Assembly (NCBI GenBank): GCA_023053575.1
Contig: JAKZAP010000010.1
Coordinates: 10,439,225-10,503,224, forward strand
DNA length: 64,000 nt
Source of the DNA: Branchinecta lynchi
Taxonomy: Eukaryota > Arthropoda > Branchiopoda > Anostraca > Branchinectidae
Direction: 5' to 3'
Below, one piece after another: positions 20,916 to 64,000 of this stretch; position 1 is the stretch's first letter, and each line of letters begins with the position of its first letter. Under the pieces are notes generated by a model. The model was given only the letters and a program-made list of their open reading frames with translations. It was not told the DNA's origin and did not search any database. The position numbers were made by a program, and so were the translations under genes.

Positions 20916-21334
20916 TCTTGTTGTTATGAAACAGTACAAAAAGTAATCCTTACTTCAGTGGTCTTACTTCAAGTCTGGATACAATTCTACTGAAACTATT
21001 CACGCCGAACATTCAGTCTGAATGACCGAAACGGCCGATTGAAATAACGGATTGTCTTGAAGGACCTGTCTTACCTATAATACTAACGCAACCTACTTCC
21101 ATAATCACTCCGTATATTTCTAAACCCGGAAGCCACAATTGCGTACGGTACATTCTTATTGACGCTCCTGAGACAAGGAGCAAAGCTGTTCGGAAAGTTG
21201 TCCTGAAACAACCAGCACCGAATTCAAGCCAGCATTACCTACGTCCTCATTCGCACCCTATTTCGTGGAATCCTTCAGTTGTACATAGTTAATTGTCTTT
21301 AGTGCCTTAATTTGATGTTGACAATGCCAATGAT
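20916..21334. other. Intronic spacer between F2 and F1 elements
   Basis: Nothing recognised. Confidence 0.5.
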
Positions 21335-22343
21335 TTTTGGGATCCCAAAACGTAAGTGGAGGGATAACTATGACATCGTAAAGTTGTCCGTCTGTCCGTC
21401 CGTCCGTCCGTCTGTTAGCACGATAACTCTCGAAGGGGTTTAAATATTTTGATCAAACTTGGCATGAGGACTCTTTAGGTCAAAGTACAGGTCAAGTTCG
21501 AAGATGGGCAATGTAGCTCTAAATTTAGGGGTGGGGGAGGGGTTTAAAATTAAGGGGACCAAACAATATTTTTTAAAAGCTAATCAAATCGTCGAATTAG
21601 GGGTAAGGGGACATGCTGAATCCGAAAATGAAATTTATTTTCTCGCTGGAAAAATAGTTCACCCGGAATCCGGCGAAAACCGGAATATTTGTAAAAAGTA
21701 ATATGAAGTTGATTGGAGGTTCGATTTAGGGGCAAGGAAACGTGCTGAGTCCGAATATGAAAATTATTGTCTCGCTGGACAATTAGTTGGGCCGGAATCA
21801 GGCCAAAACCGGAGAATTTGTCTAAAGTAAAAGTTTATTTAAATTTGATAAGATGTTCGATTTGCGGGTAAGTAGACATGCTGAATTCGCATATGACAAC
21901 CATTTTCTCACCGGACGTATAGATCGCTCGGAATCCGGCTGAAACCGGAAAATTTGTTAAAAGTAGAAGTTTAATTGGAAGTTGATTAGAGGTTGGATGT
22001 AGGGGTATATAAGGAGACATGCTGAATTCGTTTTTGAGCTTTAGTTTTTTGCCGGACAAGTAGCTCCGGAATTCCGCCGAAACCGGAAAATTGGCAGAAG
22101 TAAGGCAGGAAGTTTCGATCTGCTTCGTCAAAATAGATATGACTTAAAGGGGTAAACACACATGCTGAATCCATATGTGAACTTGGTTTTCATATGATTA
22201 GCTAGTTTGCCTTAATCTTTTTCTAAATTCTAATAGTAAAAGTGTTCAAGGAGTCTGGCGAAGACTGGACCTGGCGAAGACAAGACCCAATTGTCTGGAT
22301 CAAATTTGAACTTTTGGGATCCCATCGAAACCTTTGGTCTTGT
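21335..22343 (+). mobile_element. F1 element, copy a (best full-length copy)
   Basis: The left end is the perfect palindrome TTTTGGGATCCCAAAA, followed by CGTAAGTGGAGGGATA and a (GTCC)n stretch (21388-21415). Next come 'GATAACTCTCGAAGGGGTTT' and a TTTTGATCAAACTTGGCATG phrase. The right end is TTTTGGGATCCCATCGAAAC followed by CTTTGGTCTTGTT. Between them are five degenerate units, with the landmark GCTGAATCC/TTCG at 21615, 21744, 21880, 22021 and 22164 (spacing 129-143 bp). Each unit has a CCGGACAA...CCGGAATCCGGC...AACCGGAAAATT core. It is non-coding. Seven related copies or fragments lie in the window. Confidence 0.85.
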
Positions 22344-23169
22344 TGTAATATTGCGGCACAGTAAACGGATTGATTGATTGATTGATTGAACCCCTCGAAC
22401 AAAACCACGTTTATTTTCTCGCTTCCCGTGTTTGCTACTTTCGATGTGTATCACGCTGTTGATGGATGTCTGCGAGAAGTTTTTCTATCTGAAAAACCGG
22501 TTGTGTAAATTGTCTGCCTGTTTTCGCTACAAGTCAACGGGTCGCGGAAAAGGCTTAAAACAGACAAAACCGTGGGTTGTTTGTTGAAAGCACAGCCTAG
22601 TTTTCAAGTATCCAAATATTTTAAAATACTGTAGGGTCCTTTAAAGTTTTTTCTCGTTTCTTTCGTGCTTTTCTCAAATTCTCTCGTAATTTTCTCAAAG
22701 CTTGGAAGAAAACCTTTATCCCTTACTGCTGTGTCGGTTCCTTCGCTCGAAGCATGTACTAGAAATTATCTCTCATTCACTCCTGTCGATTTTCCCATCG
22801 GATGGGGGTCACGTCTCGATGTAAGGACTGTGAAATGGCGGAAAGGCAAGGCGTTTGAAAGCCCGAACACGTGCTTAACTCGGTTTAGCGCTCCGCCGGG
22901 AGTGGAATATTATGGATTACCGGACATTATTCTTCGACCGAGTAGAATTATGGCTAATTTTTTAGCTGTCGGAATGAAATTTCAGGACAATTTGTGACCT
23001 TTTCAAAGAATGGAAATAGGTCATAGAAATGTTTAGCCACTTCGTTTAATCTATGCGGCGAGAAGAATTTTGTTTTTGTTTGACATAATGTGACAGAACT
23101 AGAAGAGAAAAGAATATTCACGAAGATCAAACTATTTATCATAATTCAGTTTTTAGTACTTTTCATGAC
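22344..23169. other. Intronic sequence, nothing recognised
   Basis: A (GATT)5 run at 22367-22389 may be a retroelement tail. A 110-codon open frame (22665-22997) has no recognisable family features. Confidence 0.5.
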
Positions 23170-35300: not shown

Positions 35301-36053
35301 CTTGCAGCTGTCGTTTGTTGTGCCAGTCCGAAATCCCCCCACTGTTTCTAGAACACTTACTAGCACCATCAGCCGGCCTCCTGGGCCGTAAACTGGACAA
35401 AACTGTCGATGTAATCGTAAAGTGTTGGCTTGTTTATAGTTCCAACCATGCTGTTTAATAGTAGCTGACGTACTGTCCTTAACAGCACATTCGAGCAACG
35501 TATGAAAATAAGATACAGTGTTAGAGAAGATCGTTTGCCTATCCAGACACAGGTTGATTTATTTTACAATAAACTGCAGCAACAAAGTTTGAAACGGATT
35601 GAAACCGGGAATGAAAGAACCTAGAAGCAGACTCCAACACCGCGCCGGATATGGGTGGCGTTACGCTGAAACTGAAAACAGTTAAAATATGCCCAGGAAA
35701 CGGTGCCGCGGCGATCGCCGACGCTGATACGTCCGCGGCGGCGATTTGCTTGTGTTTTGGCGTTTGCGTAAAATTTTTGAGACATTTTTGTGCTTGTGTT
35801 GTACTGACCAGCATTATTCCACACAGTCCTGCCTAAATGACATTTCGTTAGAATCCGGAATTCTTTTTTATTCCATCGTTCCTGGGCACTGACGAATTCG
35901 GTGAAGAACGCAATTGTTTTATGATTCACAGTCAGCATGGGCTGAAGAAATATTTTGCTAGATTGATGAGAATTGAGAATGTGACAAACCTTGGGCCCCT
36001 AGTTTAAAGTCATTGCGTGTTCTTCGTAAATATCGCAAGCCCTTCTCGACTGC
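32353..36053. other. Intron 3 sequence with poly-G tracts and minor repeats
   Basis: Visible items are a 14-G run (33061-33074) and a 17-G run (33199-33215). There is a direct pair of about 40 bp, 'GGACAGATT.CGTTA.TTA.GTGGCGAGTTGAAT', at 34011 and 34078. A C-rich segment lies at 34578-34623. A CpG-rich palindromic patch, GCCGCGGCGATCGCC, lies near 35703, with a second GCGGCGGCGATT near 35734. No gene is recognised. Confidence 0.45.
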
Positions 36054-37043
36054 AACAAGACCAACAGTTTCGATGGGATCCCAGACAGAAATATTTGATA
36101 CACACAATTGGGTCTGGTCATCGCAAGATACAGTCTTTGCTAGATTCTTTGAACATTTTTAGTATTAAAATTTAGAAACATAATGGCAAAATAGCTAATC
36201 ATCTGAGCAAACCAAGTTCAGATATGATTCAGCATATGTGTTTACCCCTATAAGTCATATTTGTTTTGACGAAACTGGTCGAAACTTCCTGCCCTGCTTC
36301 TGCCAGATTTCCGGTTCCGGCCGAATTCCGGGCGAACTGCTTGTCCGGCAAAAAAATAAAGCTCAAAAACTGACTCAGCGTATCTCCTTACCCCGATATC
36401 GCGAACATCTAATCAAGTTCAATAAAACTTCAACTTATGACACATTTTCCGGTTAAGCCGGAATCCGGGCGAACTATATGTCCGTGTAAAAAGCGATTGG
36501 CATATACGGATGCAGCATCTCTTCGTACCCCTTAATCAGACATCTAATCAACTTCAAATAAACTTTTGCTTTTAACAAATTTTCCGGCTGTGGCCGGATT
36601 CTGAACGATTACTTGTCCGGGTGGAAAATTATTTTCACATAAGTGTTCAGCATGTCTTCTTACCCCTATATCAGACATCTAATCAAATTCAAATAAAACC
36701 TTTACGTTACTTTTATCCGGTTCTGGCCAGATTCCTGGCGAACTACTTGTCCGGCGAGAAAGTGATTGTCTTAATCGTGTTAAGCATTTCTGCTTACCCA
36801 CCTGAATTGAGTATCTCATTAGCTGTTTAAAAATATTTTGTGTGTCCTTTAATTTGAACTCCCACCTCTAAATGTAGGGCTACAGTGCCCATCTATAAAC
36901 TCGACCTGTCCCTTGAACCAGAGAATCCTCACACCAAGTTTCATCAAAATATTTCATTCCCTTCGAGAGTTATCGTGCTGACAGACCGACGGACAACTTT
37001 TGCGATGCCATAGGTATCCCTCCACTTACGTTTTGGGACCCCA
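36054..37043 (-). mobile_element. F1 element, copy b (reverse orientation, near full length)
   Basis: It begins CAGTTTCGATGGGATCCC, which is the inverse of the F1 right end. It ends 'CCCTCCACTTACGTTTTGGG' with GACCCCAGAAAG, the inverse of the F1 left end. CCGGATT/CCGG-rich units recur inside at about 115-140 bp spacing. The module 'TTTCATCAAAATATTTCATT' with CTTCGAGAGTTATCGTGCTG precedes a short remnant of the GTCC tract. Confidence 0.82.
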
Positions 37044-38644
37044 GAAAGAAAGTAATGCTGAACATAGGCGCATCCTTATACTGAATGTTTGTGATCAGAT
37101 CGTCTGTTTGCGGGCCTGTCTGACCACAATTGTGGCCATCAGTGCCTATGTTGCGAGCTTGGGGGGAGGGGAATTTGTATTTGCGATTCGAGGCATTGCG
37201 TCGTAAATTGTGGTTTCAAGATTAATGATAATATTCGCTAACCAGGAAAGAGGTGGGGTAAAAAATTGAGGAGACGATGTCGCCCGCTGAACCACAAAAC
37301 AAAGCGACACCGACAAACAAATACCTGATCTAAAATACAAATCTGGGCAACAAATAATGTTGTGACTCACTATAGTAGACGGAGAAAATGTTATATTTTC
37401 TTGTTTTGTTGCTGTTCTTCGTGTATTTGTAGCAGTAATCATCTTAGAGCTAAATTAAATGAAGAGACAGCAGGGCAGAGTCTCAAACTTTCACCAATCA
37501 GAGAATTGCTTCCTGACAAATTTCTTTCTTTTAAATCTCCTTTTTCGTACCAAGTAGAGTCAAACAACAATTGGACAAGACTTCGGCTAGACAAGACATC
37601 TCTTGTCGATTACTCAGTTGAAAAATGGTCTGACAACCGTGACATGCAACGCTACAATTCTTCTAGCAAAAAAAAAAAAAACGGAAACTGCTTACATATT
37701 GGGATAGGGAGGGGGTAGCGTTATTGATAGCCGGTACTGACGAATTTGACTGGCGGGATTGGAGTGTTGTACTAAAGTACCGACGTTAATTTTTTTTTAG
37801 GTACTTTAGGCACTCCATTATTAAACCATAAAGGGAGAGAATGGCTCATTTAAGCCGAATTGCAGACAAGGACAAGACGTGGACGGTGCTTGCTCATGTT
37901 TCAATCCTTTTAAAGTTGTGCCGCTTCCAAGTCCAATTTGGATGTGCCAATTTGTTATACAAATTTCTGTCACTCTCTCATCAACATCACGCTTAGTTTA
38001 GAATACTGTTGCGTCAGTGTTTATAATTTCGTCGTCTAGTCCATATCTCCGATTTATCGTTCATCGCCAGAGCTCGCCATAGTCCTGGGAGAAGAAAGTG
38101 AAAACTTGACCAGCGGGGAGGGGGGGGGGGGGGCAATTTCCTGTTTCTCTTATATGACATACAAAAATCGCGACAGACTGGGGCCAGTGCAACAAAAGAG
38201 CCACCTTTGGCACTTCTCAGAAGACAGGAATTTCCCCTAAGATATGATTTACCCCGCCTCCGTGCATTACTCAGGTTAACCGCAGCCTACACAACTTAAC
38301 AACTCCGTTGCAGTTGGGCTGGTAACGAGGTCCGTGTAGTTAGTTTCCCCATCACGCTGCAACCGTACATGTGCGTACCGCATAATACCCGACTGTCACA
38401 GCTTTAGAAGGGAGGGAGGAACTAGAAGGGGAACATACTGTTTGAGAATTGTGTGTTGTTTCTTGTAAGTAATCTTATTCCAATCCTCCCCTTTGATTTT
38501 AATCTAAGACCTCAAGAGCGTCTAGCGTTGCCCCGGATCCAAGAGAGCTTTGATGTTTTCATTTGATTGCAAATCTCACAAGATGTGATTTTAGTTGCCA
38601 ACCCTACCAAATGTAATGGATGTTTATATGTTAATTCCGCACCT
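37044..38644. other. Intron 3 sequence, nothing recognised
   Basis: A 14-G run lies near 38120-38133 and an A run near 37668. No family motifs are seen in any open frame. Confidence 0.45.
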
Positions 38645-38827
38645 CTTTTGGGACCCCAAAACGTAAGTGGAGGGATACCTATGACATCGCAAAAGTTGTC
38701 CGTCTGTCCGTCCGTCTGTCAGCACGATATCTCTCGAAGGGAAAGAGATATTTTGCTGAAACTTGGTGTGAGGAGTCTTTGGGTCAAGGGTAAGGTCAGT
38801 TTTGTAGATGGACTCTGTAGCCCTATA
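38645..38827 (+). mobile_element. Outer F1 element, left part (split by LINE insertion)
   Basis: TTTTGGGACCCCAAAACGTA starts the element, followed by GTGGAGGGATACC, a (GTCC)n tract and the 'TCTCGAAGGGAAAGAGATAT' module. It breaks off at GACTCTGTAGCCCTATA exactly where the LINE tail begins. The missing remainder of the same element resumes at about 48462 in the same orientation. Together they give about 980 bp, the normal length of F1. Confidence 0.8.
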
Positions 38828-39819
38828 AGTAAGTAAGTAATTTATTTATGACCCGCCATTTTGAAAAGGCGGAGTAATGAAGAAAATAAACAAAACACAT
38901 AAACACAAAATAAAGAAAATAAACAAAACACATAAACACGCAGAAAAAGACACTTAATTTTCAATCTTCGGTCAGGAAGCAGTGGACGACGTCGTGCGCT
39001 GGTTGGTCCCTGTTGTCCATGATTTTTGAAAGCGATGAGGAAACATCCAAAAGGGTCACACTTGCATCTTGAATTTTGAATTTCTCCGTCAATGTATGGT
39101 TATGACATAATTTCGAAAAGTGAAGCAGGTGCTTCGCATATTTAAAATAACATGATCTCCTCTTTTTAATCTCCTTCTTTCGCAGAATATGAGTGACGCC
39201 AGAACGAAATAGTATAGAAGGAGCGCAGGAGGTGCTGCACAAATTTCCCAATGCTTTACGATTATAGCGCCCCCGGTTGGGGACGATGCGCCCATAGGCG
39301 CTATTTATAAACTTCCTGAACAACCAAAGAGCAAAATTGACAATGAAGATTTGAACTTTATGCCGAGCCACCTTAGAGAGTCTGTTGATTTGACGATGAA
39401 CGATCCAAGAGATCTAGAAGGTTTGGATGCATTCGAACCCTTTGACGAAGGGTTGAAATGCAGGTACTCACATTTTGACAGGTTAACTTCAAGGCCAATT
39501 TTGAGAAGTTCCGATGACAGCTTACTTGCATTTTTTGTGAGTGTGGATCGACTACAAGCTTACTAAGAGCAAGTCGTCCGCGTAGGCTATGTAGCTGAAG
39601 GCATAGTCTCTATAGAAGTAAGCAGGATGCAAAGAATCGAGACTAGAAGATATAGCCGATTTGAAGATTTAGGGAGATTAGACTCCCCCTTGGCGAACAC
39701 CAGTTCGGACAGGAATACTCTCTGACAAGCTACCTTGCCATTTGAACCTTACTGAAGAATGACCATACCAACATTTTAACAGATAGACAACAGACAGATT
39801 CACGCCAGAAGTAATGATA
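38828..39819 (-). mobile_element. LINE family B, downstream part (RT motifs B and C, C-terminus, TTAC tail)
   Basis: On the minus strand, the part just after the foldback insertion encodes LLKCWYGHSSVRFKWQGSLS and then VRTGVRQGGV (RT motif B). Two in-frame stops follow, then SYIAYADDLLLVS (motif C). A C-terminal block includes 'NSAYGRIVPNRGRYNRKALG' and ends HCFLTED. The 3' UTR ends with GGCGGGTCATAAATAAATTA and (CTTA)n, abutting the split F1 element. The upstream RT part lies at 48191-48461, beyond the foldback transposon. Stops show that it is dead. Confidence 0.92.
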
Positions 39820-39829
39820 CAAAATAGGG
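39820..39829. repeat. Target-site duplication, left (CAAAATAGGG)
   Basis: This ten-base sequence is identical to 48181-48190. It belongs to the interrupted LINE: with one copy removed, the LINE reading frame continues across the junction without a shift. Confidence 0.92.
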
Positions 39830-40394
39830 GGTCGCTGTCACTACCCCCACCCGTCAGTTCGCCCACCCGTCAGTTCGCCCACTTCCAAAATCCGACAGTT
39901 CGCCCACTCGTCAGTTCGCCCAACGTCAGTACGCCCACCCGTCACTACGCCCACCCGTCACTACTCCCACCCGTCACTACGCCCACCCGTCACTACACCC
40001 ACCCGTCACTACGCCCACCCGTCAGTTCACCCACCCGTCAGTTCACCCACCCGTCAGTTCGCCCACCGTCAGTTGACCCACCCGTCAGTTCACCCACCGT
40101 CAGTTCGCCCACCCGTCATTTCGCCCAAAAATCCGTCAGTTGACCCACCCGTCATTTCGCCTAAGAATCCGTCAGTTCGCCCAATTTTCCGACAGTTTGT
40201 CCACCCGTCAGTTGGCCCAAAAATCCGTCAGTTGACCTATCCGTCATTTCGCCTAAAAATCCGTCAGTTCGCCCAATTTTTATGACAGTCATCCACCCGT
40301 CATTTCGCCTAAGAATCCGTCAGTTAGCCCAACTTTTCCGACATTTTGTCTACCCGTCATTTGGCCCAAAAATCCGACAGTTGGCCCAACTTTG
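39830..40394 (+). repeat. Foldback outer array, left (about 32 units)
   Basis: I count about 32 units of the form CCCACCCGTCAGTTCG (16 bp). Variants have CACTAC or CATTTC in place of CAGTTC, and toward the inside there are 20-21 bp forms with an AAAAATC or AATTTTC insert (for example CCCAAAAATCCGTCAGTTGG). Unit types are ordered: CACTAC forms near the outer end, long forms inside. Plus-strand open frames through it (39814-40143) are low-complexity repeat translation. Confidence 0.95.
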
Positions 40395-41250
40395 CTAGAT
40401 CAGTAATATCTATGAAGAAGGGGCGCGAACCCAGGGGAATAATCAGAAGGAGCGAACCTTTTTTCGTTTAATTAGGGTCGATACAAAATTCCTTTGGGTG
40501 CGACTGTTCTGTTTACTTAAAAAAAAGATCCCGTTCACGTGAAGATGGGTGAAAAGAAAAGCTGTTCAAATAGTTTGTAACAAACTTTGTTGCTTGATAA
40601 AGAGGTTGTTGCTAACGCCGGCCGAGCTAACGAGCTCGTATCCCTGTCGGCCCCCAGTGATCAAAATAGATTGTCACAAAGTATTTTTGAAATAAAAGAA
40701 CCTGAACCTGAGCCTGCTAATTTTTACGGAAATTGAAAGGTTTTTGCAACGATACTCGCAAACAGACCTATCCAAAGTTCAACATCCTAGGTAGGTTTCG
40801 GAACTGTATTTCGTCGTTTTTTATGTTACTTTTTCACTATAATAATTACGTAAACATTTAGTCAGAAATATCAGAAGCTTGTTTTTAGATTCTGCATAAA
40901 ATACGAAAGGAAAATATAGAGGATGAACACAAAAGTAAAAGGTAAAAATAGAGTAACGTGCAGCGAAAGTGTTCGACTGGCAACTCGATTGGGAGTAGTT
41001 CACAAGGAAATAAAAAGTAAAAGCATAGTAGGAATAAGGGGTGGCCCGAAGGAGCGGAGATTCAACCCTCTCCTCTTTTATTTTGGCCTCATCGAGGTCC
41101 CAGACGCTCGTTTTAGTTTAAGACAATCCGATTTTTTTTTTTTTAATTGTTAATTTTGGCACTTCTGGCCAGCTTCAGTCGTAGATCCGTCCCTGTCAAA
41201 GGCAAGCCGAGTCGTTTAAACCAGGTTTCATAACCCCGTTAGGTCGGTAG
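40395..41250 (+). repeat. Foldback inner arm, left
   Basis: It contains CCCAGGGGAATAATCAGAAG, TTCGTTTAATTAGGGTCGAT and 'AATTACGTAAACATTTAGTC' (40844). Further in are a stretch to 41037 ('AAAAGTAAAAGCATAGTAGG'), GGGGTGGCCCGAA (41038) and 'TCAAAGGCAAGCCGAGTCGT' (41196). Each block has an inverse partner in 46540-47550. Around 40560-40720 an unmatched block ending GAAATAAAAGAACCTGAACC looks like a retroelement 3' end inserted into this arm. Confidence 0.8.
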
Positions 41251-41839
41251 TATGATATGATTTTGTGTGCTACAATGGTAGTGCTAAAGAACATCTGCAA
41301 AGCCTTCGTGAATTCCAGTCCCTCAGATGGAAATCAGGAAACACCTACAACTCGAAAACAATCCTTTTATTGTACGTTATTCGGAACTGTAAGCGAACTT
41401 TTCGTTCTTCAATTGCCGTGTAGAGCATCGCCCGTCGCGTATCGAGACTCGGACCTAAGTTGAGGGTTAGGTCGTAGATTTTAATGCCAAGCTTTCTCGT
41501 GTCGCCTCCTAGTATTTCTTGGAGAGAATATTAGCCCTCCTATCAAAAGTAATTGCAATGTACGAGACTGAACTCTTTACGGAAATTTTCCTCTTGTTAG
41601 TGGGAAGATGGTTTTTCTAATTCTACGTAGCCTACCAACTGAATATAAATAGGACATCAAAGATATGTGTTTATATGTGTAAGAACCGAAGGCTTTCAAA
41701 CCAGGGACCCGAATGTCCAAAAGCTACTTAACTTTTTCGAGAAATTTCGCGGATTAACCACGACAGACCAGGGTTACAGATTGCAATATTCATTGCAAGT
41801 TTTGGGATTCCATGTAATAAGAGGATATCTCTTGAGAAA
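41251..41839. other. Foldback interior, unassigned DNA
   Basis: At 41567-41640, text such as 'CTCTTTACGGAAATTTTCCT' with a CTACGTAGCCTACCAACTGA phrase is a diverged inverse match to 46945-47015 in the right arm, but displaced relative to neighbouring blocks. A 60-codon plus-strand frame at 41667-41849 contains the stretch RDPNVQKLLNFFEKFRGL. I recognise no family, and it is cut off by the next F1 element. Confidence 0.5.
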
Positions 41840-42685
41840 GAAGACCTAAGGTTTCGATGGGATCCCAAAAATCTAATGTTTGATCCCGGGAATTGGGTCT
41901 TGTCTTCGCTAGATCTAGTCTTCGCCACGCTAACCATCTGAGAAAACCAAGTTCAGATATACCTTTACAAGCCATTTCTATTTTGACGATACTGACCGAA
42001 ACTTCCTGCTTTACATCTGCCAAATTTCCGGTTTCGGCCAAATTCCAAGTGAACTACTTGTCCAGCAAAAAAAGAACAATCCAGAAACGACGTCAGCGTA
42101 TCTCCTTATCCCTATAAAGAACATCTAATAAATTCAAATAAAACTTTAACTTATACAATTTCCGGTTTCAACCGGATTCCAGACTAATTATATGTCCGGG
42201 TAAAAATGAGTGTCATATACAGACTCAGCGTCTTTTCTTAGCCCTAAATCTGTCATCTAATCAACTTCAAACGAAACTTTCGCTTTTAACAAATTTTCCG
42301 GTTTGGCCGGATTCTGGGCGAACTAGTCTGTCATCATCGCGTTCAGTATGTCTTCTTATTCCATAACAGAACATCTAATCAACTTCAAAGAAAACTTTTA
42401 ATTCTAACCAACCAACCTTGCCTTATCCGGAAAGAAAATGGTTTTCACCATCGTGTTCAGCATGTCTTTTTACCCCATAATCGACTATCGCATTAGCTGT
42501 TACACAATTTTTGTGTTGCCCCTTAATATGACCCCCCCCCCCTAAATGTAGGACTACAGAGCCCATGTACGAACTTGATCTTACCGTTGACAGAAAGAAT
42601 CCTCACACCAAGTTTCATCAAAATAGCCCATTCCTTTCGAGATTTATCGTGCTGACAGACGGACGGAAGATTACTCCATTGGAGA
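41840..42685 (-). mobile_element. F1 element, copy d (inside foldback, reverse orientation)
   Basis: It begins AGGTTTCGATGGGATCCCAA (inverse F1 right end). CCGG-bearing units recur, such as TCCGGTTTCAACCGGATTCC. It ends near the inverse of the 'TCTCGAAG' module and CTGACAGACGGACGG. The left terminus (palindrome) is missing or degraded. Confidence 0.8.
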
Positions 42686-42790
42686 CACCCCTTCTCGTTT
42701 AATTAGGATCAACACGAGTTGATTATTAGTGCAGCTTTTATGTTTTCGTAAAGAAGAGTATGAAGATGGGTGCGAAAAATTGTTGTAAGC
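42686..42790 (+). repeat. Third partial copy of a foldback arm block
   Basis: TTCTCGTTTAATTAGGATCA and ACACGAG are followed by GTGCAGCTTTTATGTTTTCG and 'TAAAGAAGAGTATGAAGATG'. This matches the right arm (inverse of 47340-47465) better than the left arm. It lies in the same orientation as the left arm, sandwiched between an F1 and an F2 element. Confidence 0.75.
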
Positions 42791-42796
42791 TCAAAT

Positions 42797-43921
42797 GGCA
42801 CTTGCAGCTGTATGTAGTAGGTAAGGGGTCTGTGAGATGTTCGGGTCCCGATATGCCTGCCAACTTTCGTCCTAAAAACGCCATCACAGGAATTCTGGAA
42901 GGCCCCCCTCCACCTCCTACCCCCAAGTGTCCTGCTCCAGTCCAATTGTGCAAACGATTTATCTAGAATAAATGCTTGTTCTTCCCAGCAAGTTTAACTC
43001 CGATCCTTCCATTCTATCCGTTTCTTGAAATTTCCGACCACCCCTCCATCAACTCCCCAGTAGCTGTTGAATCCGCTATCATAAGTTGAGATGGACCATT
43101 TGATAAAAAGTGCTTTCCGACTTTGCAGTTAACATGCGCACTTTAAGGGAGCTGGAACTTCATTTGTAAGCAAAACCCATGAAAATGTATATTTCGCTTA
43201 AAAGTATTTTTCTTACTTTACACCCAAGATTGGTACTTGAAGGAATAGTCGGATTGGAAAAGTGGCGATTTCTAAGCCAATCTTCTCGAATGTCTAATAT
43301 TCCAGCCAAGATCGTCCTAGCACATCTAAGTGCCTTAAATCGCGATCACCGGAATTCCGACACCCCCACCCTCCCCTCAAACTACCCCCACAATCGCTGG
43401 AGTCAATCCAGTTGTGAAAAAGATTTATCCAGAGCATCTTTTTCTTACTCCCAGAAAGTTCCATCCCAATCTCTCCAGTATCAGCCTTTCACGTATCCCC
43501 CCCCCATCTTCCTGACATGAAAAAGATCCCCAGAGACATGTCCTTTGTTCAATTATGAAATTTCACTCAAATCCATCACCCGTTCCAAAGTTACGCATAA
43601 CTCGATATTCCAGATTCCCCCTCCCTCCAGTCCCTCACGTCCTAGCACACCTGGAAGTACCCTAACTCGGAAACGTGTGAAAAACTGCCCTAATATTCCA
43701 GATTCCTCCGCCCCCTACTCCCCCGCAGATGGTCGGATCGAGAAACTGGTTATATCCAGGTTAGTTTGGTTGGTCCCTGATAAGTCTGCCAAGTTTCATC
43801 GTCCTAGTACATCTGGAAGTACCCTAGCTCGAAAAAGTGTGAAAAAAAACCCGGACAGACCGACAGACGGAATTACGATAGGTGTATTACATTTGAGCCA
43901 GAGGCTACAAGTGCCATAAAA
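42797..43921 (-). mobile_element. F2 element, copy b (inside foldback, reverse orientation)
   Basis: It starts ATGGCACTTGCAGCTG and ends GGCTACAAGTGCCATAAA, the inverted AAGTGCCAT termini of F2. Inside are CTGCCAACTTTCGTCC, 'TCACCGGAATTCCGACACCC', a TTTCATCGTCCTAGTACATC stretch, and near the right end GACAGACCGACAGACGG. All are inverse forms of the F2 modules. At about 1.1 kb it has fewer internal modules than copy a. Confidence 0.8.
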
Positions 43922-44343
43922 AGAAATTTAGACAGGTCGTATTAGAATTTCAGTACCTCCATTTAATCTTGCGAAAATTGTGAATATTCCTTGAAAAACT
44001 GTGAAAAATTACAAAAAATTAGAGATAAAGTTGAAAATAAGACGTTGAGCTAAAATGTGTTGTTTTTTACAAGTTGTCATGTGTCAGACAACAACTGAAG
44101 AACTCACTCAATTCCCTCACTCACCGTGTATAACTGACCAGAATCATGTCCAACAAGTAGTCCAGTCTTGTTACATTTAAAGCTCGATTTTTTTTTTACA
44201 TGTAATTTGACGTTGCCATATGCACTAAACGAGTGAGTTTCGAGTCCCGGTGTCTCCAATTACGGATATCGAACAGATCTAGTACAAAGTCGCTTTTATT
44301 GAAATCGAGACTGGTCCAACTTTCGCGTATGAATGCTTCCTTT
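43922..44343. other. Foldback interior, unassigned spacer
   Basis: Nothing recognised. AT-rich, no coding similarity. Confidence 0.45.
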
Positions 44344-45297
44344 TTGGGATCCCAAAACGTAAGTGGAGGGATACCTATGACATCGTAAAGTTGTCTTTCT
44401 GTCCGTCCGTCCGTCCATCTGTTAGCACGATAACTCTCGAAGGGGTTGAGATATTTTGATCAAACTTGGCATGAAGAGTTTAGGTCAAAATACAGGTCAA
44501 GTTCGAAGATGGGCCTTGTAGCTCTATATTTAGGGGTGGGGGAGGGGTTTGAAATTAAAGGGAACACAAAATACTTTTTAAAAGCTAATGAAATAGTCGA
44601 ATTAAGGGTAAGGAGACATGCTGAATCCGATATGAAATTTTGTTTCTCGCCGGACAAATAGTTCACCCGGAATCCGGTGAAAACCGGAATATTTGTGAAA
44701 AGTAATATGAAGTTGATTGGATTATTTTCTCGCCGGACAATTAGTTCGGCAGGAATCCGGCCAAAACCGGAGAGTTTGTTTAAAGTAAAAGTTTTATTTA
44801 AATTTGATAAGATGTTCGATTTGCGGGTAAGTAGACAAGCTGAATTCGCATATGACAACTATTTTCTCACCGGACATATAGATCGCTCGGAATCCGGCTG
44901 AAACCGGAAAATTTGTTAAAAGTAAAATTTTAATTGCAAGTTGATTAGAGGTTGGATTGAAGGAGACATGCTGAATTCGTTTTTTTAGCTTTATTTTTTC
45001 GCAGGACAAGTAGTTCCGAAATTCCGCCGAAACCGGAAAATTGGCAGAAGTAAGGCAGGAAGTTTCGATATGCTTCGTCAAAATAGATATGACTTAAAGG
45101 GGTAAACACACATGCTGAATCCATATCTGAACTTGGTTTTCTCATATGATTAGCTATTTTGCCTTAATCTTTTTCTAAGCTTTAATAGTAAAAGTGTTCA
45201 AGGAGTCTGGCGAAGACTGGATTGGCGAAGACAAGACCCAATTGTCTGGATCAAATTTGAACTTTTGGGATCCCATCGAAACCTTTGGTCTTGTTTA
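44344..45297 (+). mobile_element. F1 element, copy e (inside foldback, full length)
   Basis: TTTTTGGGATCCCAAAACGT at left and CTTTTGGGATCCCATCGAAA at right match copy a. The (GTCC)n tract, the 'ACTCTCGAAGGGGTTGAGAT' module and four to five CCGG units follow the same order. It is strikingly similar to copy a over its whole length, including the non-repeat start ('GTCAAGTTCGAAGATGGGC'). Confidence 0.87.
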
Positions 45298-45964
45298 ATA
45301 TCGTTCCACTTCTTACCTTATTGACTACAACAGTAGGCTTTCAATTAAAAAAAGAGGTAAATACGTAAAATAAAGTAACATGGATCACGTGCATATCCTC
45401 AACAAAGCTCCAGCACCCGGTGATGTTGCAGACCGATATAGCCTACTGATTCTACAAAGTTACTATGCATACCTGACTGACACCTGGTGTACGAGGGTTT
45501 CATAGGTAAGAAACCCCTATGTTTAGGCCAAGCATTATCATTTCTGCTAAGCTTATTGTAAATGTGGTTAACTGTGTGCTCTTCCTGTGACAAATAAACC
45601 AGAAGTAGAATTTGTATTAAATTGATAGATCATTGATAAACCAAGGCAGGGCCTTTATACAATCCAGCATTAACTTCTGGTTTACTTGTCGCAGTAATAC
45701 TCTCTTGTATCAAATCTGACCGTTGCGTAAAGTTTATAAACAACTATAAACAACAGTTTATAAACTCTGAATTATGCTTATGGTCATATACCTATGACAA
45801 ATATTATATATAGTATATTACAAACCTGTAATATAGATTACAGGTTTGTTTCCTTCCCCGAAGTTGAACCAGAGGATTGACAGCCTGACGAGGACCCTTG
45901 ACAAGAAGGGCCGAAATATCGCTGATAAAGAATCGTCGCTGACGTATCCGTTGTAAACATTGTT
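45298..45964. other. Foldback interior spacer with dispersed-repeat end
   Basis: The first part shows nothing recognised beyond an inverted pair, AAACCAGAAGTAGAATTTGT-type (45597) versus TAACTTCTGGTTTACTTGTC (45670). From about 45875, 'AGCCTGACGAGGACCCTTGA' with AAGGGCCGAAATATCGCTGA is the dispersed retroelement-like end also seen at 16-146 and 14126. Confidence 0.5.
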
Positions 45965-46475
45965 TGAATAAATATGCCTACGACTTCGCAAAAGTTATCC
46001 TTCTGTCCGTCCGTCCGTCTGTTAGCACGATAAATCTCGAAAGAGTAGAGATATTTTCTTGAAAATTGGTATGAGGATCTATTGGGTCAACGTACAGGTC
46101 AAGTTCGTAGATGAGCTCTGTAGCCCCATACCTAGGGGTGAGGGAGGGGTTTCAAATTAAGAGACGAAAAAAAATGTTTTAAAAAGCAAATAAGATAGTC
46201 GATATAGGGGAAAGGAGACATGCTGAATCCATATCTGAAACTGATTTTCTCGCCGAACAATTAGTTCGTCCGGAACCCGGCCGAAGCCAGAAAATTTATT
46301 AAAGGTAAAAGTTTTATTTGAAGTTGATTAAACGCTTGGTTTAGGGGCAACAAAACATGCTGAATCCGTATATGATAATTCTTTTCTACCCGGCCGAGTA
46401 TTTCGTCCGGGATCCGGCCAAAACCGGAAAAAAATTGGTAAAAGTGTAAGTTTTATTTGAAGTTGATTAGATAGA
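45965..46475 (+). mobile_element. F1 element, copy f (inside foldback, truncated both ends)
   Basis: It starts inside the left region ('GCCTACGACTTCGCAAAAGT', then (GTCC)n) without the GGGATCCC palindrome. It runs through 'GATAAATCTCGAAAGAGTAG' and about three CCGG units. It stops near GATTAGATAGATACAAATCA, where right-arm sequence begins. Confidence 0.78.
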
Positions 46476-46539
46476 TACAAATCATATACGACTAGAACAG
46501 GTTTTAAAACAAGGGTGCAATGGTACCCGTCGTTCAAGA

Positions 46540-47564
46540 AATAATCATGTCACCGCCCTGACGGGGTATTGAAACCTGATTTAAACGACTCGGCTTGCCT
46601 TTGACTGGGACGGATTTACGATGATATTAAAAAAAAAATTCAAACGACTCGGAGATTGTGTTTGACAGATGTCACCCCCACTCACCCCCCCCCCTTTCGG
46701 GCCACCCCTGGCCCCAAACTGGCAGTAGATATTGCAGTAAGCAACCCTGGGTGTGTCCTTGGTTAACAGCACAAGGGACTCAAGGTTGGAAAAGCTGTTC
46801 TGTACGAATCTACGATCATATTTTGGAAAAGCTTTTGAATATTCGGGTTTGCTGGGTTGAAAGCCGTCGGCGAAAGAAATTTATAATTCTCACATACCTT
46901 GAATCACATAACGTTGACGAGCAGTTTAAATTTAGTTTGTGGGCTACGTAAATTTAGGAAAAAAAGTTTTCCCACTGATAAGAGGACACTTTCCGTACAG
47001 AGTAGAGACTCAGACATTGCAGATAGCTTGCGAATATATTCGGAGATAGTACACGGAAGCTCGGTAGTAAAGTCCTGCATTATATTATTTCTATTATGCT
47101 TTTACTTTCCATTTCCGTGTGAACGACTCTAAATCGTATTGCCAATCAGAACCCTTTACTGCTCGTTACTCTATTTTTTTTCATCTTTTAGATTTTCCAA
47201 CTGAATTTGCCGCAGAATCTCGCAAAGCTCCCCACGTTTCTGACTAAATGTCTACGTAATTGTCGACTCCTTCTGATTATTCCCCTGGGGTCTCGGTGCT
47301 TTTTCATATAATACCTTTTTTAAACCCATCTTCATATCCTCATATCCTCAGCCTTTTTGTGCAACAAATGCTATTAAATGCTATCCTTCTTTACGTAAAC
47401 ATAAAAGTTGCACCCATAGGCATCTCGTGTTGACCTAATTAAACGAGGAAGGTCGCCTCTGTTTGAGTAATCTTCTGGGATTGCGTCCCTTTTTTTACTG
47501 ACAGGGCCGAGTTGAGCTGATTATTCCCCTGGGGTCGCGGCACTTTTTCGTGGATTTAATGATC
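46540..47564 (-). repeat. Foldback inner arm, right
   Basis: Read as inverse complement, this repeats the left-arm blocks in the same order outward-in: CCCAGGGGAATAATCAG, CCTCGTTTAATTAGGTCAAC, AATTACGTAGACATTTAGTC, 'GTAAAAGCATAATAGAAAT', GGGGTGGCCCGAAAGG, TCAAAGGCAAGCCGAGTCGT. Differences from the left arm are a second 'GATTATTCCCCTGGGGTC' block (47270 and 47519) and about 380 bp between the AAGCATA block and the GGTGGCCC block that the left arm lacks or carries elsewhere. Confidence 0.8.
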
Positions 47565-48180
47565 CTGCAAAATTGGGTCAACTGTCGGATTTTTAAATTG
47601 GGCGAAGTGACGGATGTCGGGAGTGGGTCAACTGACGGTTCAAGGAGTGGGCCAACTGACGGATTTTTGGGCCAAATGACGGGTGCCCGAACTGTCGGAA
47701 AAATTGGGCGAACTGACGGGGAGTGGGCCAAATGACGGATTTCAAGAGTGGGTCAACTGACGGATTTCAAGAGTGGGCGAACTGACGGATTTCAGGAGTG
47801 GGCCAACTGACGGATTTTTGGGCCAAATGACGGGTGGGCGAACTGTCGGAAAAGTTGGCGGAACTGACGGATTTTTGGGCGAAATGACGGGTGGGCGAAC
47901 TGACGGTAGGCGAACTGACGGTGGGCGTAGTGACGGGTAGGCGTAGTGACGGGTGGACGTAGTGACGGGTGGGCGTAGTGACGGGTGGGCGTTGTGACGG
48001 GTGGGCGTAGTGACGGGTGGGCGAAGTGACGGGTGGGTGTAGTGACGGGTGGGTGAACTGTCGGAAAAAGTGGGCGAACTAACGTTTAGGCGAACTGTCG
48101 GGAAAAGTGGGCGAACTGACGGATTTTTTAGGTGAAGTGACGGGTGGGCGAAATGACGGGTGGGCGTAGTGACGGGTTCC
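47565..48180 (-). repeat. Foldback outer array, right
   Basis: The same 16- and 20-21-bp units as the left array appear in inverse orientation (GGGCGAACTGACGG, GGGCGTAGTGACGGGT). GTAGTGACGGGTGGGC units again lie near the outer end and long AAAAAGT/ATTTTTGG units lie inward. On the minus strand the LINE reading frame runs into the array, giving a 199-codon chimeric frame (47742-48341). Confidence 0.95.
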
Positions 48181-48190
48181 CAAAATAGGG
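48181..48190. repeat. Target-site duplication, right (CAAAATAGGG)
   Basis: This is identical to 39820-39829. Both copies coincide with the LINE codons encoding the A-L-F region just after RT motif A. Confidence 0.92.
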
Positions 48191-48461
48191 CCTGAGAATG
48201 CGTTATATTGTCAAAAGCACCAGCCATATCTATAGAATATATATGTATAGAAGACTTGTCGCGGGTAGCCTGTTTCATCATTTTTGTCAATATGTGATGA
48301 GCGTGCGCACAGCTGGCGCTTGAACGGAATCCAAACTGCATTGAACCAAAGCGACATTTTTCAACTATTTCTGGAAGAAGGACGTATTCCAGGATTTTGC
48401 TTATGGTACAAGAAACTGTAATTGGCCGATAGCTTTTGCAGAGGTCCGCGTCTTTCCCTCT
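48191..48461 (-). mobile_element. LINE family B, upstream part (RT fingers and motif A)
   Basis: The minus strand reads KDADLCKSYRPITVSCTISK, then ILEYVLLPEI, FGSMQFGFRSSASCAHAHHI and HIYSIDMAGAFDNITHSQAL. These are RT motif 1 (YRPI...S...SKILE), motif 2 (QFGFR) and motif A (D.A.AFDN, catalytic Asp). It continues directly into the part at 39819-38828 once the foldback element is removed. The LINE is truncated at its 5' side near 48461, where the split F1 element resumes. Confidence 0.93.
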
Positions 48462-49259
48462 CTATATTTAGTAGTGAGGGAGGGGGTTCAAATTAAGGGG
48501 CAAACAAAATATTTGTAAACAGCTAGGGTGACAGTTGATGTGTAAGAAGACTTGCTGAACACGATGATGAAAAATATTTTCTCGCCGGACAATTAGTTCG
48601 TCCGGAATCCGGCAAAAGCCGGAAAGTTGGTTAAAATTATAAGTTTTATTTGAAGTTGATTAAATGTTCGATTATGGGGTAAGAAGACATGCTGAACACA
48701 ATGATGAAAACTATTTTCTCGCCGGACAACTAGTTAGCCTGGAATCCGGCCAAACCGGAAAATTTGTTAAAAGCGAAAGTTTTATTTGAAGTTGATTAGA
48801 TGACATAAATAGGGCTAAGAAAAGACGCTGAGTCTGCATATGACAAATATAGGGCTAAGAAAAGACGCTGAGTCTGCATATGACAATCATTTTTCACCCG
48901 GACATATAATTCGTCCGGAATCCGGTTGAAACCGGAATTTTTGTAAGTCAAAGTTTTATTTGAAGTTGATTAGATGTTCCTTTATAGGGATAAGGAGATA
49001 ACGCTGAATTCGTCTCTGAATTTTCTTTTTTTCTGGACAAGTAGTTCGCTTGGAATTCGGCCGAAACTGGAGATTTGGCAGAAGTAAAGCAGGAAGTTTC
49101 GGCCAGTATGGTCAAAATAGATATGGCTTATAGAAGTATATCTGAATTTGGTTTTTCAGATGATTAGCGTGGTGAAGGCTGGATCTGGCGAAGACAAGAC
49201 CCAACTGTCTGGATCGAATATTAGATTTTTGGGATCCCACCGAAACCTTAGGTCTTGTT
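48462..49259 (+). mobile_element. Outer F1 element, right part
   Basis: It resumes at CTATATTTAGTAGTGAGGGA, the point in F1 just after the block where the left part stops at CCCTATA (shared CTATA, a likely LINE target duplication). Several CCGG units follow, one with a 38-bp internal duplication (48802-48878, 'ATAGGGCTAAGAAAAGACGC'). The end is TTTTTGGGATCCCACCGAAA. Confidence 0.82.
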
Positions 49260-49539
49260 TTTGTGGGAACTCCCATTGTTCTCTGTTTTTGGAAGTCACG
49301 AAAGAGGTGTCTGTGTCGAAGTAGAAAGTGATGCCAGTTAAAAGAGCCAGAAGGGTCAAATTATGTCTTGCGGAACTATTACGCCCATCACAGCTAATGC
49401 TATTGTTTATGAGGTAACGTGCACTTCTCATATCGGCCTTGTACAGGTGGTCGCTTTAGCAGATTCGACTGGTGCATCGAGATGATTATTTCCTATGTCA
49501 GCTCCCAGACTTGTTGATTTCATTGTCGACTTCGAGGTT
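49260..49539. other. Intronic spacer, nothing recognised
   Basis: A minus-strand frame includes RSARYLINNSISCDG, but I cannot link it to a family with confidence. Confidence 0.4.
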
Positions 49540-49923: not shown

Positions 49924-50310
49924 TTACCCTAGGTTCATACAACGTTCACACTGAGGCGATATCGGCCATCGCCGAGATTTTCGTTGCCAAAATCGGTGAT
50001 TTCTGTTGCTTCGTCTGGCGATTTTCAATGTTGGGAAAATTCAACCTTAATCGGGTGACAGTACGATTTTATGTACCCAGCAGCAACATGGACCACCCTT
50101 TTGATGATTCACTTTTAGAAAAATTCATTATTGCTATCAGTTCTACCCCATTTTTGTATGAAAAGCGAGAAAAGGGAATTTTTCAAATTTTTCGCGTTAA
50201 ATTTGCTGACGAAAATTCAGTGTGAACATCCAGGCGATACAAATCTTCTGTCGCTGCGATTGAAAAATCTCGTTCATCGCCGCGATTTGCTCTGTGTGAA
50301 CCTAGGGTTA
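49924..50310. mobile_element. MITE with CCCTAGGTTCA ends (piggyBac- or Harbinger-like)
   Basis: TTACCCTAGGTTCATACAAC at left and GTGTGAACCTAGGGTTAG at right form inverted ends (CCCTAGGTTCA) flanked by TTA on both sides. Inner parts also match in inverse (TTCACAC, CGATT/AATCG, GCCATCGCCGAGATTTTCG against CGATGAACGAGATTTTTC). TTA flanks suit a Harbinger 3-bp duplication or a mutated piggyBac TTAA. A 109-codon plus-strand frame spans most of it, with no protein similarity. Confidence 0.65.
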
Positions 50311-50612
50311 GAATTTGTTCAAATTTCCTGGCTGGAGAAACAGTTTTTGTCCTCTGCGAGTTGTCGCAGGGCCCACAGGCAGGAGTCTGCTCAGCCGACC
50401 TGGCACTGAGGCCCAAGTTCGTACTTCAGGACCCCTGTGTGTTTTATTTCTGACCTTGGAAGAATTTGTTCAAATTTCCTCGCTGGAGAAACAGTTTTTG
50501 TCCTCTGCGAGTTGTCGCAGGGCCCACAGGCAGGAGTCTGCTCAGCCGACATGGCACTGAGGCCCAAGTTCGTACTTCAGGACCCCTGTGTGTTTCATTT
50601 CTGACCTTGGAA
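50311..50612. repeat. Tandem duplication, 2 x 151 bp
   Basis: GAATTTGTTCAAATTTCCT at 50311 recurs at 50462, and the following 130 bp (including CAGGAGTCTGCTCAGCCGAC) are almost identical. It begins directly at the right end of the preceding MITE. Confidence 0.93.
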
Positions 50613-51984
50613 GCCTCAGTGTCACTCGAGTTTTGGCAAGGAGTGTAATTATGATGAGATTTCATAAAGCCACGTCTGTATTTGGAGACCGCTCTTTCGG
50701 TGTGTTGAGATATGATCTTGAATTGAAGAGTGGAAACCTATACTTTGGGTATGCGAATAATATCAGACATATTCTGGGAATAGGAAGGTTATCCGGTTCG
50801 TTATCCTAATCTGTGGCTGCAAAACACAAAGCGGTATTTTTTGATGGATTGGCGCGTCCCCCTCTGAGTCATGCTTTAAGTGCTCCTGTGGAAACGCTTC
50901 TTGGGTGGGTAAAAAATGCATGCAGTTTCCATCACGATAAAGTAAAGGGGTTGGTCACTCTGCTTTTTTGCGTACACCTGGCTCCCTTGCACCCTCCCGA
51001 TGAAAAATTTGTAGCCTGCGTAGTAGTATGGTAGTAGTACGAAAACGGATACTTCCGGATATCCTGAATAGCACTTCGGAAAGGGTTATAACAAAGGTGT
51101 GCGAGTTTATGGACGGAGCGTTGAAGCTAAGAGCGACCAAGCTTAGTAGTGAGGCTTCATAGCCGGAGGAAATTATTGTTCTTGTTTTCCTTTGTAATAT
51201 GTACTATTGTTGTATTATGTATATGGCCCCTGGGCTTTTAAATACAGTTATTATAGCACTATGTAATAGCAAAGAATACTATCATTTAATGTGCCTCAGA
51301 CTGGTCCAGTCTTATGTAGTAGTATCCAGCAGTATCCTGTCTTGCCATAGGAGCATCTAGTCTTGCTAATAGTAGCAGATAGTAGTATGCAGTAACACGG
51401 TAGCCTTGAAGTAGAAGCATGTAGTAACATCGTTAGTATTGCTTGCTACTTTTTCGTACTACTTCATAGTACTGTAAATTTTTCATCGGGTTTTGCCAAA
51501 TGTTTAAAGTTTACCTGACAGCGCTATTGACCGGATTCTTTATTCTGCCGAGGATATAGACGACCTTCCGAGCAGACCACGGCGCCATCTGAATTTTGTC
51601 GAGGGCATGTTTTTTCATTCGGTAAAATTGCGAATGACAGAAAAAAACACGCTACCATGTCCCTGGCTGCAGAGTAAGTTCAGAAGGCCTGGATTACTAG
51701 GTTGCCTGTTTGGGACATCACATTTTGTGAGGCAATTTGATGCTGCTTCCTTTGCTAATAGTTTGAAGTAACATATAGCTACCATGAGTTTGAAAGATAT
51801 AGCCTATACAAATTATATTATATAATAAAAGATATATTTTTTTAATGAAATGACGAGTCGGTTAAGATTTTTTTTTAGTGAAATTCTGGTCCTACTGTGA
51901 TTACAGGCTCGTTTCCACCACGCGCAGGGGTGTCACTAGTCTTTTATCTTGGGGGGGGGGGGGGCGCATTTTGGTTGAGATCCA
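50613..51984. other. Intron 3 sequence with a retroelement-like tail
   Basis: Near 51193-51243, 'GTATATGGCCCCTGGGCTTT' with TAAATACAG resembles a LINE 3' end (compare 'CCCTTGGGCTTTATTGGGAA' at 12286). Repeated AGTAGTA-type words occur at 51308-51480. A G-run lies at about 51950-51963. No gene is recognised. Confidence 0.45.
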
Positions 51985-61837: not shown

Positions 61838-64000
61838 GAAAGCTCATATGGCACTTGTAAGAACAGTTAGCATGTTTGTCAGATACGGTTTGCAGTTTTC
61901 AGAGGCTGGTATCTCTCTCCCGATATTCATTTCATCAGAAAATGGGCTTGATCTAGTAGATCTGAAATGGTTATACCACTCATTGACAACTGTATCTTCC
62001 TCCAACGATGATCGGATCGGGGGAGGGACTATATTTCCAAGCCAATTTAACATGCCTGCAAAGTTTCACGGTCATAGCACATCTGGAAGTACCCTAACTC
62101 GTGATCATCGGAATTAGGGAAAACCCCCTCCAACTCCTCCCACTGTGACACGATCGGTCCTGTTTTGTCAATAATAATAATAATAATAATAATATATTTG
62201 CAAATTGAATGGCAGGCCGTTAAGGTTAAGCCTCTACAATTTATCTATGGCTTATGCTTGTTCTTCCCTCCAAGTCCCATCCCGATCTCTCGACTCGAAG
62301 CGCTTCAAGAGATTTCACCCCCCCCCCCCTTCAGCTCCTCCCGATGTTATCAGATCCGTTCCAGACTTGAAATTGATCATCTGAGTCACTTGTTCTTGAC
62401 ACTTGACAAGTTTCATGCACGTCTGATCACCTGTTCCAAAGTTATGCATGTCAATAGAATCTCCCCCATGATCATCGGATCGGGAAAAGAACTATTTTCA
62501 AGTTGACCTGGAAGAGTACCTAATATGTCTGCCAAGTTTCATGGTCCTGGTACATGTGGAAGTACCCCTCGAAGTACCCTAACTCGTGATCACCGGAAAT
62601 CCGGGTAAACCCCTTCCAACCCCTCTACTGTGACATCCCGATCCATCGACCCTAAGCATTTGACGACATTTCCGGTCCCCCCTCTAATCCCCCTCTCTTC
62701 GGATTTGGTCCAGATTTGAAACTGAAAATCTGAGACACTTGTTCTTCACAATTGTCAAGTTTTATGCATGTCCGATTATCCATTCCAGATTTATGCATGT
62801 TTCTAGTTTCCGGATTCCCCTTCCCTCCACCCCCCTCCCCGCGATAGCAGGATCGGGGAAGCGATTATTTCCATGTTAATCTGGTTGGTTCCCTCATATG
62901 CCTGTTAAGTTTTATTGTGCTAGCTTATTTGGAAGCGTTTCAACAGATTTCCGGTTTGCCCCTCCAGCCCCCCCCCCCAGTGATCGGATCTGGTCCGGAT
63001 TTGAAACTGAGCATCTGAAGCACTTGTTCTTGACATATGTCAAGTTTCTTGCATGTCTGATAACCCGTTCCAAAGTTATGCATGTTACTAGTTTCCGGAT
63101 TTCCCATCCCTCCACTCCTCCCACAATGACCGGATGGGGAAAGTGATTATTTCCAAGTTCTTCTGATCGGTTCCCTGATATGCCTGCCAAATTTCATTTG
63201 TCCTAGCTTATGTGGAAGCGTTTCATGAGATTTCCGGTGCCCCCCTCCAGCCCCCCCCCCCCAGTTATCGGATCTGGTCCGGATTTGAAATTGAGCTTCT
63301 GAAGCACTTGTTCTTGACATATGTCAAGTTTCAGGCATATCTGATTACCCGTTCAAAAGTTAGGCATGCTACTACTTTCCGGATTTCCCATCCCTCCACT
63401 GCCCCCAAGATGGCCGGATCGGGGGAAGTGATTATCGAGGTGATTATTTCCAAGTTAATCTGGTCGGTTTCCCAACACGCCTGCCAAGTTTCATCGTTCT
63501 AGCTTATGTGGAAGCGTTTCACGAGATTTGGGTGCCCCCCTCCAGCCCCCCCCCCCCCCCCAGTTATCGGCAATTGTTCTTGACATATGTCAAGTTTCAC
63601 GCAAGTCCGATTACCCGTTCTAAAGTTATGCATGTTACTAGTTTCCGGATTTCTTGTTGCTCCACCCCCCCCCCCCCCCCCCACGATGGCCGGATCGGGG
63701 AAGTGACTGTTTCCATGTTAATCTGGTTCGGTCCCTTATACGCCTGCCAAGTTTCATCGTCCTAGCTTATGTGGAAGTGCCTAAACTAGCAAAACCGGGA
63801 CAGACCGACAGACCGTCGTTTCCGGATTTCTCATCCCTCCACCCCCCCCCCCCCCCACTATGATCGTATCCGGAATATGATTATATCCAAGTTAATCTGG
63901 TCGGTTCCCTGATATTCCTGCTAAGCGTTTCACTAGATTTGTTTGACTTGGACTGACCATCTTTAAACCGTATCTATTCTCGCATTCGCTTTGTATACAT
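61838..64000 (-). mobile_element. F2 element, copy c (reverse orientation, continues past right edge)
   Basis: It begins AGCTCATATGGCACTTGTAA, the inverse of the F2 right end in copy a (AAGTGCCATATGAGCT). Repeating inverse modules follow: 'CTGCCAAGTTTCATCGT', TCTTGACATATGTCAAGTTT, 'CCGTTCCAAAGTTATGCATG', TTTCCGGATTTCCCATCCCT, and C-runs of 10-17. A GACAGACCGACAGACCG stretch at 63802 is the GTC-rich region. Module spacing is about 270-310 bp between the repeated 'TTGACATATGTCAAGTTTC' blocks (63031, 63316, 63577). There is no coding content despite several open frames. Confidence 0.8.

Follow-up and report, generated by a model that had tools for sequence, protein, structure and literature searches.

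An 8353-bp mobile element whose long inverted ends consist of short units in tandem occupies positions 39829–48181 (unstranded) of a 64,000-nucleotide stretch of the genome of the anostracan Branchinecta lynchi (contig JAKZAP010000010.1, positions 10,439,225–10,503,224, forward strand; hereafter the window, meaning this whole stretch). It has fixed ends, a target-site duplication of 8 to 9 bp across its family and an empty site legible in a long interspersed nuclear element (LINE), and its many copies have the two arms and the middle in common. We consider it likely that this is a non-autonomous foldback-type element of the cut-and-paste kind, moved by a transposase of the Mutator-like element (MULE) type that is supplied in trans, with the arrays at its ends serving as landing platforms that offer many binding sites.

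Boundaries and target-site duplication

The initial annotation, made from the sequence alone, had described a foldback-type transposon of about 8.35 kb with precise boundaries, and this description has held up, with the arrangement borne out by many copies. It had also placed the 10-bp word CAAAATAGGG on both sides of the element, and this word does have exactly two occurrences on the + strand of the window (at 39820 and 48181) and none on the other strand. The duplication is real, but its length needed correction: GGGTCGC opens 21 of 21 copies (the window copy and 20 fetched from the genome, against which the ends were set) and GGGTTCCC closes all 17 copies with a pattern-recognized right end, and since this start and finish are common to the copies, the terminal G and C of the 10-bp repeat are part of the element. 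What remains as the duplication in the window copy is the 8-bp AAAATAGG, at 39821–39828 and 48182–48189 (both +), and in some other copies it is 9 bp. The window copy runs GGGTCGC...GGTTCCC, and the ends of the family can be given as the pair GGGTCGC and GGGAACCC.

The site that the element entered lies in a minus-strand LINE, whose reverse transcriptase frame had been said to rejoin once one copy of the duplication is removed, and a continuous minus-strand reverse transcriptase indeed spans the junction. The joined sequence gives one RVT_1 match in Pfam (84.1 bits, residues 6–181, two stops read as X); taken separately, the upstream part (48190–48459, −) matches profile positions 5–85 at 42.5 bits, and the downstream part with the 3′ end (38826–39828, −, left limit approximate) matches positions 106–174 at 33.3 bits. 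Stop codons in the reverse transcriptase beyond the junction indicate that this LINE copy is broken. Seven of 60 candidates among predicted proteins are relatives of this reverse transcriptase, and a protein search of viral contigs found no locus related to the best of them. The flanks had been taken as one LINE throughout; the LINE host stands, but on the right it extends for only about 270 bp before it gives way to a dispersed repeat, G1. The G1 pieces at 38646–38825 and 48459–49260 (both +) rejoin and align across the junction with three other G1 copies at 67–74%, and as the LINE interrupts G1 and the element interrupts the LINE, the order of nesting is G1, then LINE, then element.

The end arrays and their unit

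Each end of the element is an inverted array of short units, for which the earlier figure of about 30 was close: we count 32 per arm, or 31 and 30 if a stricter unit pattern is used. The left array (39829–40390, +, 562 bp) has the consensus CGTCAGTTCGCCCACC together with longer spacer variants (15–25 bp), and the right array (47572–48181, −, 610 bp) is inverted, with its units in the same order as in the left. The unit consists of a 14-bp core, CGTCAnTnCGCCCA, followed by a spacer of 1 to 11 bp, most commonly CC, which makes 16 bp, and core positions 2, 4, 5, 7, 12 and 14 are identical in 63–64 of the 64 units. Compared between the two arms, the succession of unit variants scores 339 against a permuted mean of 260 (standard deviation 16), with none of 500 permutations as good, and the score falls to 216 when one arm is reversed; from this shared order, the arms appear to be copies of each other and not separate expansions. 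The computed duplex between the outer 300 nucleotides of each arm has a predicted energy of −296.9 kcal/mol, compared with a mean of −114.7 (standard deviation 6.6) for 60 shuffles. Text searches of the literature library with six forms of the unit sequence found no paper, the array patterns had no matches in public viral contigs or in prokaryote genome contigs, and the reading frame of the array, used as a protein query against predicted proteins, matched 0 of 1679 candidates at E ≤ 0.001.

The family across the genome

The family was searched for in the window's own genome (575.7 Mb, 216 contigs). A search with the left arm, for which the best 40 of 2592 first-look candidates were scored, such that copy numbers are lower bounds, gave at least 56 matches, and the 40 of these with an E reported as 0 are the window copy and 39 others at 89–96% identity, of which 20 were fetched in pieces of about 10 kb. 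Genome-wide, the left end motif has 290 exact occurrences and the right one 138, against 0 for a reversed-pattern control; for 32 of the 87 left ends listed on contigs C1–C7, an exact right end lies at a distance of 2.5 to 14.3 kb, one such right end serving two left ends. The fetched copies share arms and middle at 92–97%, a figure that counts only aligned pieces above 88% identity, and several have internal deletions. Over a 700-bp piece of the arm, 21 copies show a mean Kimura distance of 0.026 and lie 0.010–0.020 from their majority sequence, and these small distances lead us to read the spread as recent.

Both ends are present in 18 copies, namely the 17 with a pattern-recognized right end and the left–right pair of copy L037, and their target duplications are exactly 8 bp in 14, 9 bp in three and absent in one (L010). 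As a control, the left flank of one copy was set against the right flank of another, and 0 of 306 such pairings reached 6 bp. Movement as a unit is thus seen both in the duplications of 17 of the 18 copies and in the empty site given by the rejoined reverse transcriptase. The alignment of several copies that the initial annotation had proposed as its check yielded the duplications, at 8–9 bp, and no transposase-bearing relative among the copies tested; where it had named copies without duplications, or arrays that are not linked, as outcomes that would count against it, we found the left-middle-right arrangement in 18 copies, 17 of them with a duplication of their own.

The left array measures 542–594 bp in 17 copies with both ends, and the right array 570–628 bp in 14 of 17 and 182, 397 and 770 bp in the remaining three, the short right arrays having nine units in L021 and 21 units in L019. 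Elements with two right-type ends (L036 and L037) were considered as autonomous or separate forms and were rejected, as there is no duplication between right-type ends; the real pair in L037 runs from a left-type end at 2014 to a right-type end at 9025, with the duplication TCTAGATA.

Two further observations concern individual copies. At C18:24325980–24343353 there are three element copies head to tail, spaced about 7.8 kb apart, two of which are seen in L025 (C18:24332800–24342780), and each left end seen is preceded by the same right-array-like sequence; this may be a young tandem array that grew from a foldback element, or it may be an effect of assembly. Copy L018, as oriented, carries at 2136–4432 a 2.3-kb insert that is absent from the window copy, located at element position 1783–1787 or thereabouts and flanked on either side by a match to these 5 bp.

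Inner arms and middle

The inverted repeats had been described as continuing through inner arms to about 1.4 kb on the left and 1.6 kb on the right. Inverted arms are present, but they are mosaics and not continuous repeats: block F at 40415–40524 (+) pairs with 47387–47494 (−) at 74%, block B at 40844–41037 (+) with 47085–47261 (−) at 72%, block C at 41179–41256 (+) with 46544–46621 (−) at 87%, and block D at 41554–41806 (+) with 46712–47021 (−) at 70–76%. Blocks C and D are swapped in order on the right. The pairing extends inward to 41256 or 41806 in the left arm and to 46544 in the right arm; within the window the arms have no other matches at E ≤ 1e-5. While the two arms of the window copy are only about 70–87% alike in the four blocks, block B of other copies is 90–99% identical to the window copy on the left and 93–96% on the right (where it was found in 18 of 20). 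Because block B is 72% alike between the arms of the window copy and 90–99% alike between copies when the same side is compared, the arms must already have been distinct before the family spread, and exchange between them has since failed to make them alike.

The middle of the element contains repeats that are dispersed elsewhere in the window, including G1 at 44336–45301 (+), an inverted copy of it at 41837–42667 (−) and a partial copy at 45978–46472 (+). Mutually related tandem families with periods of 134–135 and 284 bp lie at 18724–19579, 62699–63557 and 42901–43928, and they are also related to part of the element's middle.

The genome's MULEs and the likely mechanism of movement

The MULE profile PF10551 has 22 matches in the genome, and nine of these loci were read in stretches of 4.1–7.0 kb, with element ends further away being possible. 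Two families were delimited among them, from one bounded copy each. MULE-A (L029:2580–5513, 2934 bp) has a FLYWCH domain in one frame and a MULE domain in another, together with GGG ends (GGGTCTAGG and, read inward from the right, GGGTTCCGG), an exact 8-bp duplication, GCCTGGGT, and C-rich repeats of 16–17 bp near its right end. MULE-B (L032:1566–3584, 2019 bp), whose protein is 29% identical to that of MULE-A, has GG ends (GGCTACATATCACG and GGGAGCATATCACG), an exact 8-bp duplication, CTTCCGGA, and, close to the left end, a repeat of 15 bp. A MULE-B copy also lies at L033:1788–3779 within DNA that matches the element's middle (88–92%). It was set aside as a candidate for the family's own transposase, since it begins at MULE-B's own left end and is thus read as a nested insertion; the ends of the surrounding copy were not seen. 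A pair of inverted G1 copies surrounds a MULE-A fragment in L030, and the idea that G1 arms might be MULE ends was rejected, MULE-A having its own ends and duplication.

Several features speak for placing the element beside the MULEs. Its duplications of 8 bp (14 of 18) and 9 bp (three of 18) fall within the range of 8–11 bp given for MULEs (PMC6446971), it has long terminal inverted repeats in the form of the two arrays and the inner arms, and its GG(G) ends and its 8-bp duplications recur in MULE-A and MULE-B, each of which has a 15–17-bp tandem repeat near at least one end. The authors of Tetris assigned that element to Mutator by duplication length and by earlier suggestions about foldbacks (PMC4079207), and by the same style of reasoning our element is placed beside the MULEs as a working hypothesis and not as a proven member. 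The driver is probably a MULE transposase, and the two MULE families of this genome may include it or resemble it. In the mechanism that we propose, a MULE-type transposase supplied in trans would bind the 14-bp core many times per array, the bound protein would pair the two ends, and it would then excise the element and insert it with a stagger of 8–9 bp. If the arrays do act as multi-site platforms in this way, the two arms would need to share only core and polarity, and not their full sequence. A single strand can also fold back on itself, a property on which movement need not depend.

Several results weigh against this interpretation. The interior of the window copy has no protein domain above the cut-off in six frames (best Pfam score 12.1 bits, cut-off 25), and no Pfam domain reached E ≤ 0.1 in the six frames of L014 or the three frames of L019 that were scanned. 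The MULE-A and MULE-B proteins have no matches in 21 element copies at E ≤ 1e-3; the element's strongest match to a MULE protein, at E 0.069, is not significant, and neither MULE has DNA in common with it at E ≤ 0.01. At the nine MULE loci, the stretches read contain no family arrays and at most one unit-like match per strand, and for seven MULE matches on C1, C4 and C6 the nearest of the listed exact ends is 132 kb or more away. L010 has both ends and no target duplication, and L012, L018, L022 and L025 have no right end within the fetched stretch. The nine of 22 MULE loci read yielded no transposase bounded by the ends of the family, other superfamilies with 8-bp duplications not having been searched for in the genome. 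The genome, then, holds MULEs with suitable habits, and a partner with the element's ends is hypothetical.

Duplications of 8 bp are not unique to MULEs, and the same kind of element might be driven by another transposase (hAT, P or Galileo-like, Merlin or an unrecognized one), in which case the foldback layout arose independently. This would accord with the lack of a MULE carrying the element's ends at the loci read and with Galileo, of the P superfamily, in whose foldback-like ends tandem repeats are bound by the transposase (PMC3688188). We regard it as unlikely, given that the mixture of 8- and 9-bp duplications with long, repeat-bearing arms is the pattern of published MULEs and that GG(G) ends and 8-bp duplications are also found in both MULE families of this genome. 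The way in which the element works, with many sites in each foldback end for a transposase supplied in trans, has firmer support than the superfamily of that transposase.

A bolder view, which we hold to be improbable, is that the two arms are stable, distinct left and right ends, about 25% diverged overall, that have kept unit core, polarity and the order of variants and move jointly as a pair at high copy number; if the reader were not a MULE, they would represent an independent origin of the foldback layout, with recognition by counting cores and not by one terminal sequence. The notion that this is no transposon at all, and that a direct repeat arisen by chance sits beside a local inverted duplication or a pair of unrelated minisatellites, can draw on the fact that 10-bp matches do occur near random points (within 20 bp, for 6 of 3986 pairs of points set 8.36 kb apart), but it is refuted by the left-middle-right arrangement of the 18 copies, by the duplications that 17 of them carry and by the rejoining of the host reverse transcriptase, and we give it almost no weight. 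A Helitron or Helentron carrying tandem arrays has next to no chance of being correct, as it is contradicted by the inverted arms at both ends and the 8- to 9-bp duplications, and Helitrons are not known to make a target duplication. Its precedent is the oyster satellite-like arrays, described inside a mobile element (PMC7492417).

Other repeats in the window

The dispersed repeat G1 is about 1 kb long and is made up internally of units of some 130 bp. It is present within the element and in the vicinity of several MULE loci; beyond the copies already given, it lies in the window at 21334–22351 and 36053–37052. A short repeat, 79–89% identical between its sites at 1–53, 14121–14189 and 45882–45952, may be a short interspersed nuclear element or the tail of a LINE. 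Two-copy tandem duplications at 4402–5048, 15855–16299 and 50310–50613 (periods 325, 222 and 151 bp; matches 99%, 95% and 98%) are probably recent. Scans of the window with Rfam (gathering scores) and for tRNAs gave no matches.

Comparison with known foldback and Mutator-like elements

The TU elements of sea urchins have long inverted ends of tandem repeats, with a 15-bp outer repeat, around a non-coding middle and make 8-bp duplications, and our element resembles them in layout and duplication length. The initial annotation had called it a foldback family of a new type, which was too strong, as a similar layout and similar duplications have been described for the Muta MULEs of Aedes (PMC5225508) and the nematode element Tm1 (PMC3169594); we regard it as a new family of a known kind, its newness being judged from literature text, with Repbase and Dfam outside the comparison. 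Muta1 and Muta5 of Aedes aegypti have inverted ends in which a tandem repeat of 12 or 15 bp is present nine times, and Muta1, termed a type 2 foldback, encodes a transposase and moves in yeast with duplications of 8 bp in 21 of 60 and 9 bp in 39 of 60 insertions, the Muta group including hundreds of non-autonomous derivatives (PMC5225508). Our element is like them in its 8- or 9-bp duplications and tandem-repeat inverted ends, but the Muta ends are about 150 bp and most interiors of the Muta derivatives vary (PMC5225508), whereas the arrays here measure 562 and 610 bp, with inner arms in addition, and one 8-kb interior is common to the copies read.

Tm1 of root-knot nematodes has composite inverted ends with a variable number of units of about 14 bp, members without coding capacity, and duplications of 8–10 bp in 45 of 53 cases (PMC3169594). 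These traits are shared with our element, though Tm1 differs in having asymmetric 7-bp end motifs and duplications that are most commonly 9 bp (PMC3169594), and its unit, CGATTCAGTATCCGC, shows no homology to ours, the alignment score of 6 being reached by 735 of 2000 shuffles. Long inverted repeats made of tandem repeats around a non-coding middle are common to our element, Drosophila Foldback (FB) and Tetris, a non-coding foldback with duplications of 8–10 bp that differs in its 220-bp units and outer flanking domain (PMC4079207). Rehavkus, which is related to the MULEs, is similar in having inverted repeats and a minisatellite near an end, in its case before the 3′ end, and it has a 9-bp duplication and a PHD-finger transposase (PMC6446971); our element differs in its arrays at both ends and its 8-bp duplications in 14 of 18 copies, and no Pfam domain above the cut-off, PHD finger included, was found in the window copy or L014.

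The comparison with Galileo bears on the purpose of such arrays, for there the tandem repeats of the long ends are bound by the THAP domain of the transposase, and in 2013 the role of tandem repeats as binding sites in the ends of Foldback and Phantom was called untested (PMC3688188). One genome here offers 18 bounded copies, 17 of them with exact target duplications, and so many precise copies make the purpose of the repeat arrays testable; were the arrays read by a transposase other than that of a MULE, the foldback layout would have an independent origin. With arrays that are near-constant in most copies and short in a few, and with two MULE families in the same genome, the number of units and the core bases that a foldback end needs can be put to the test directly.

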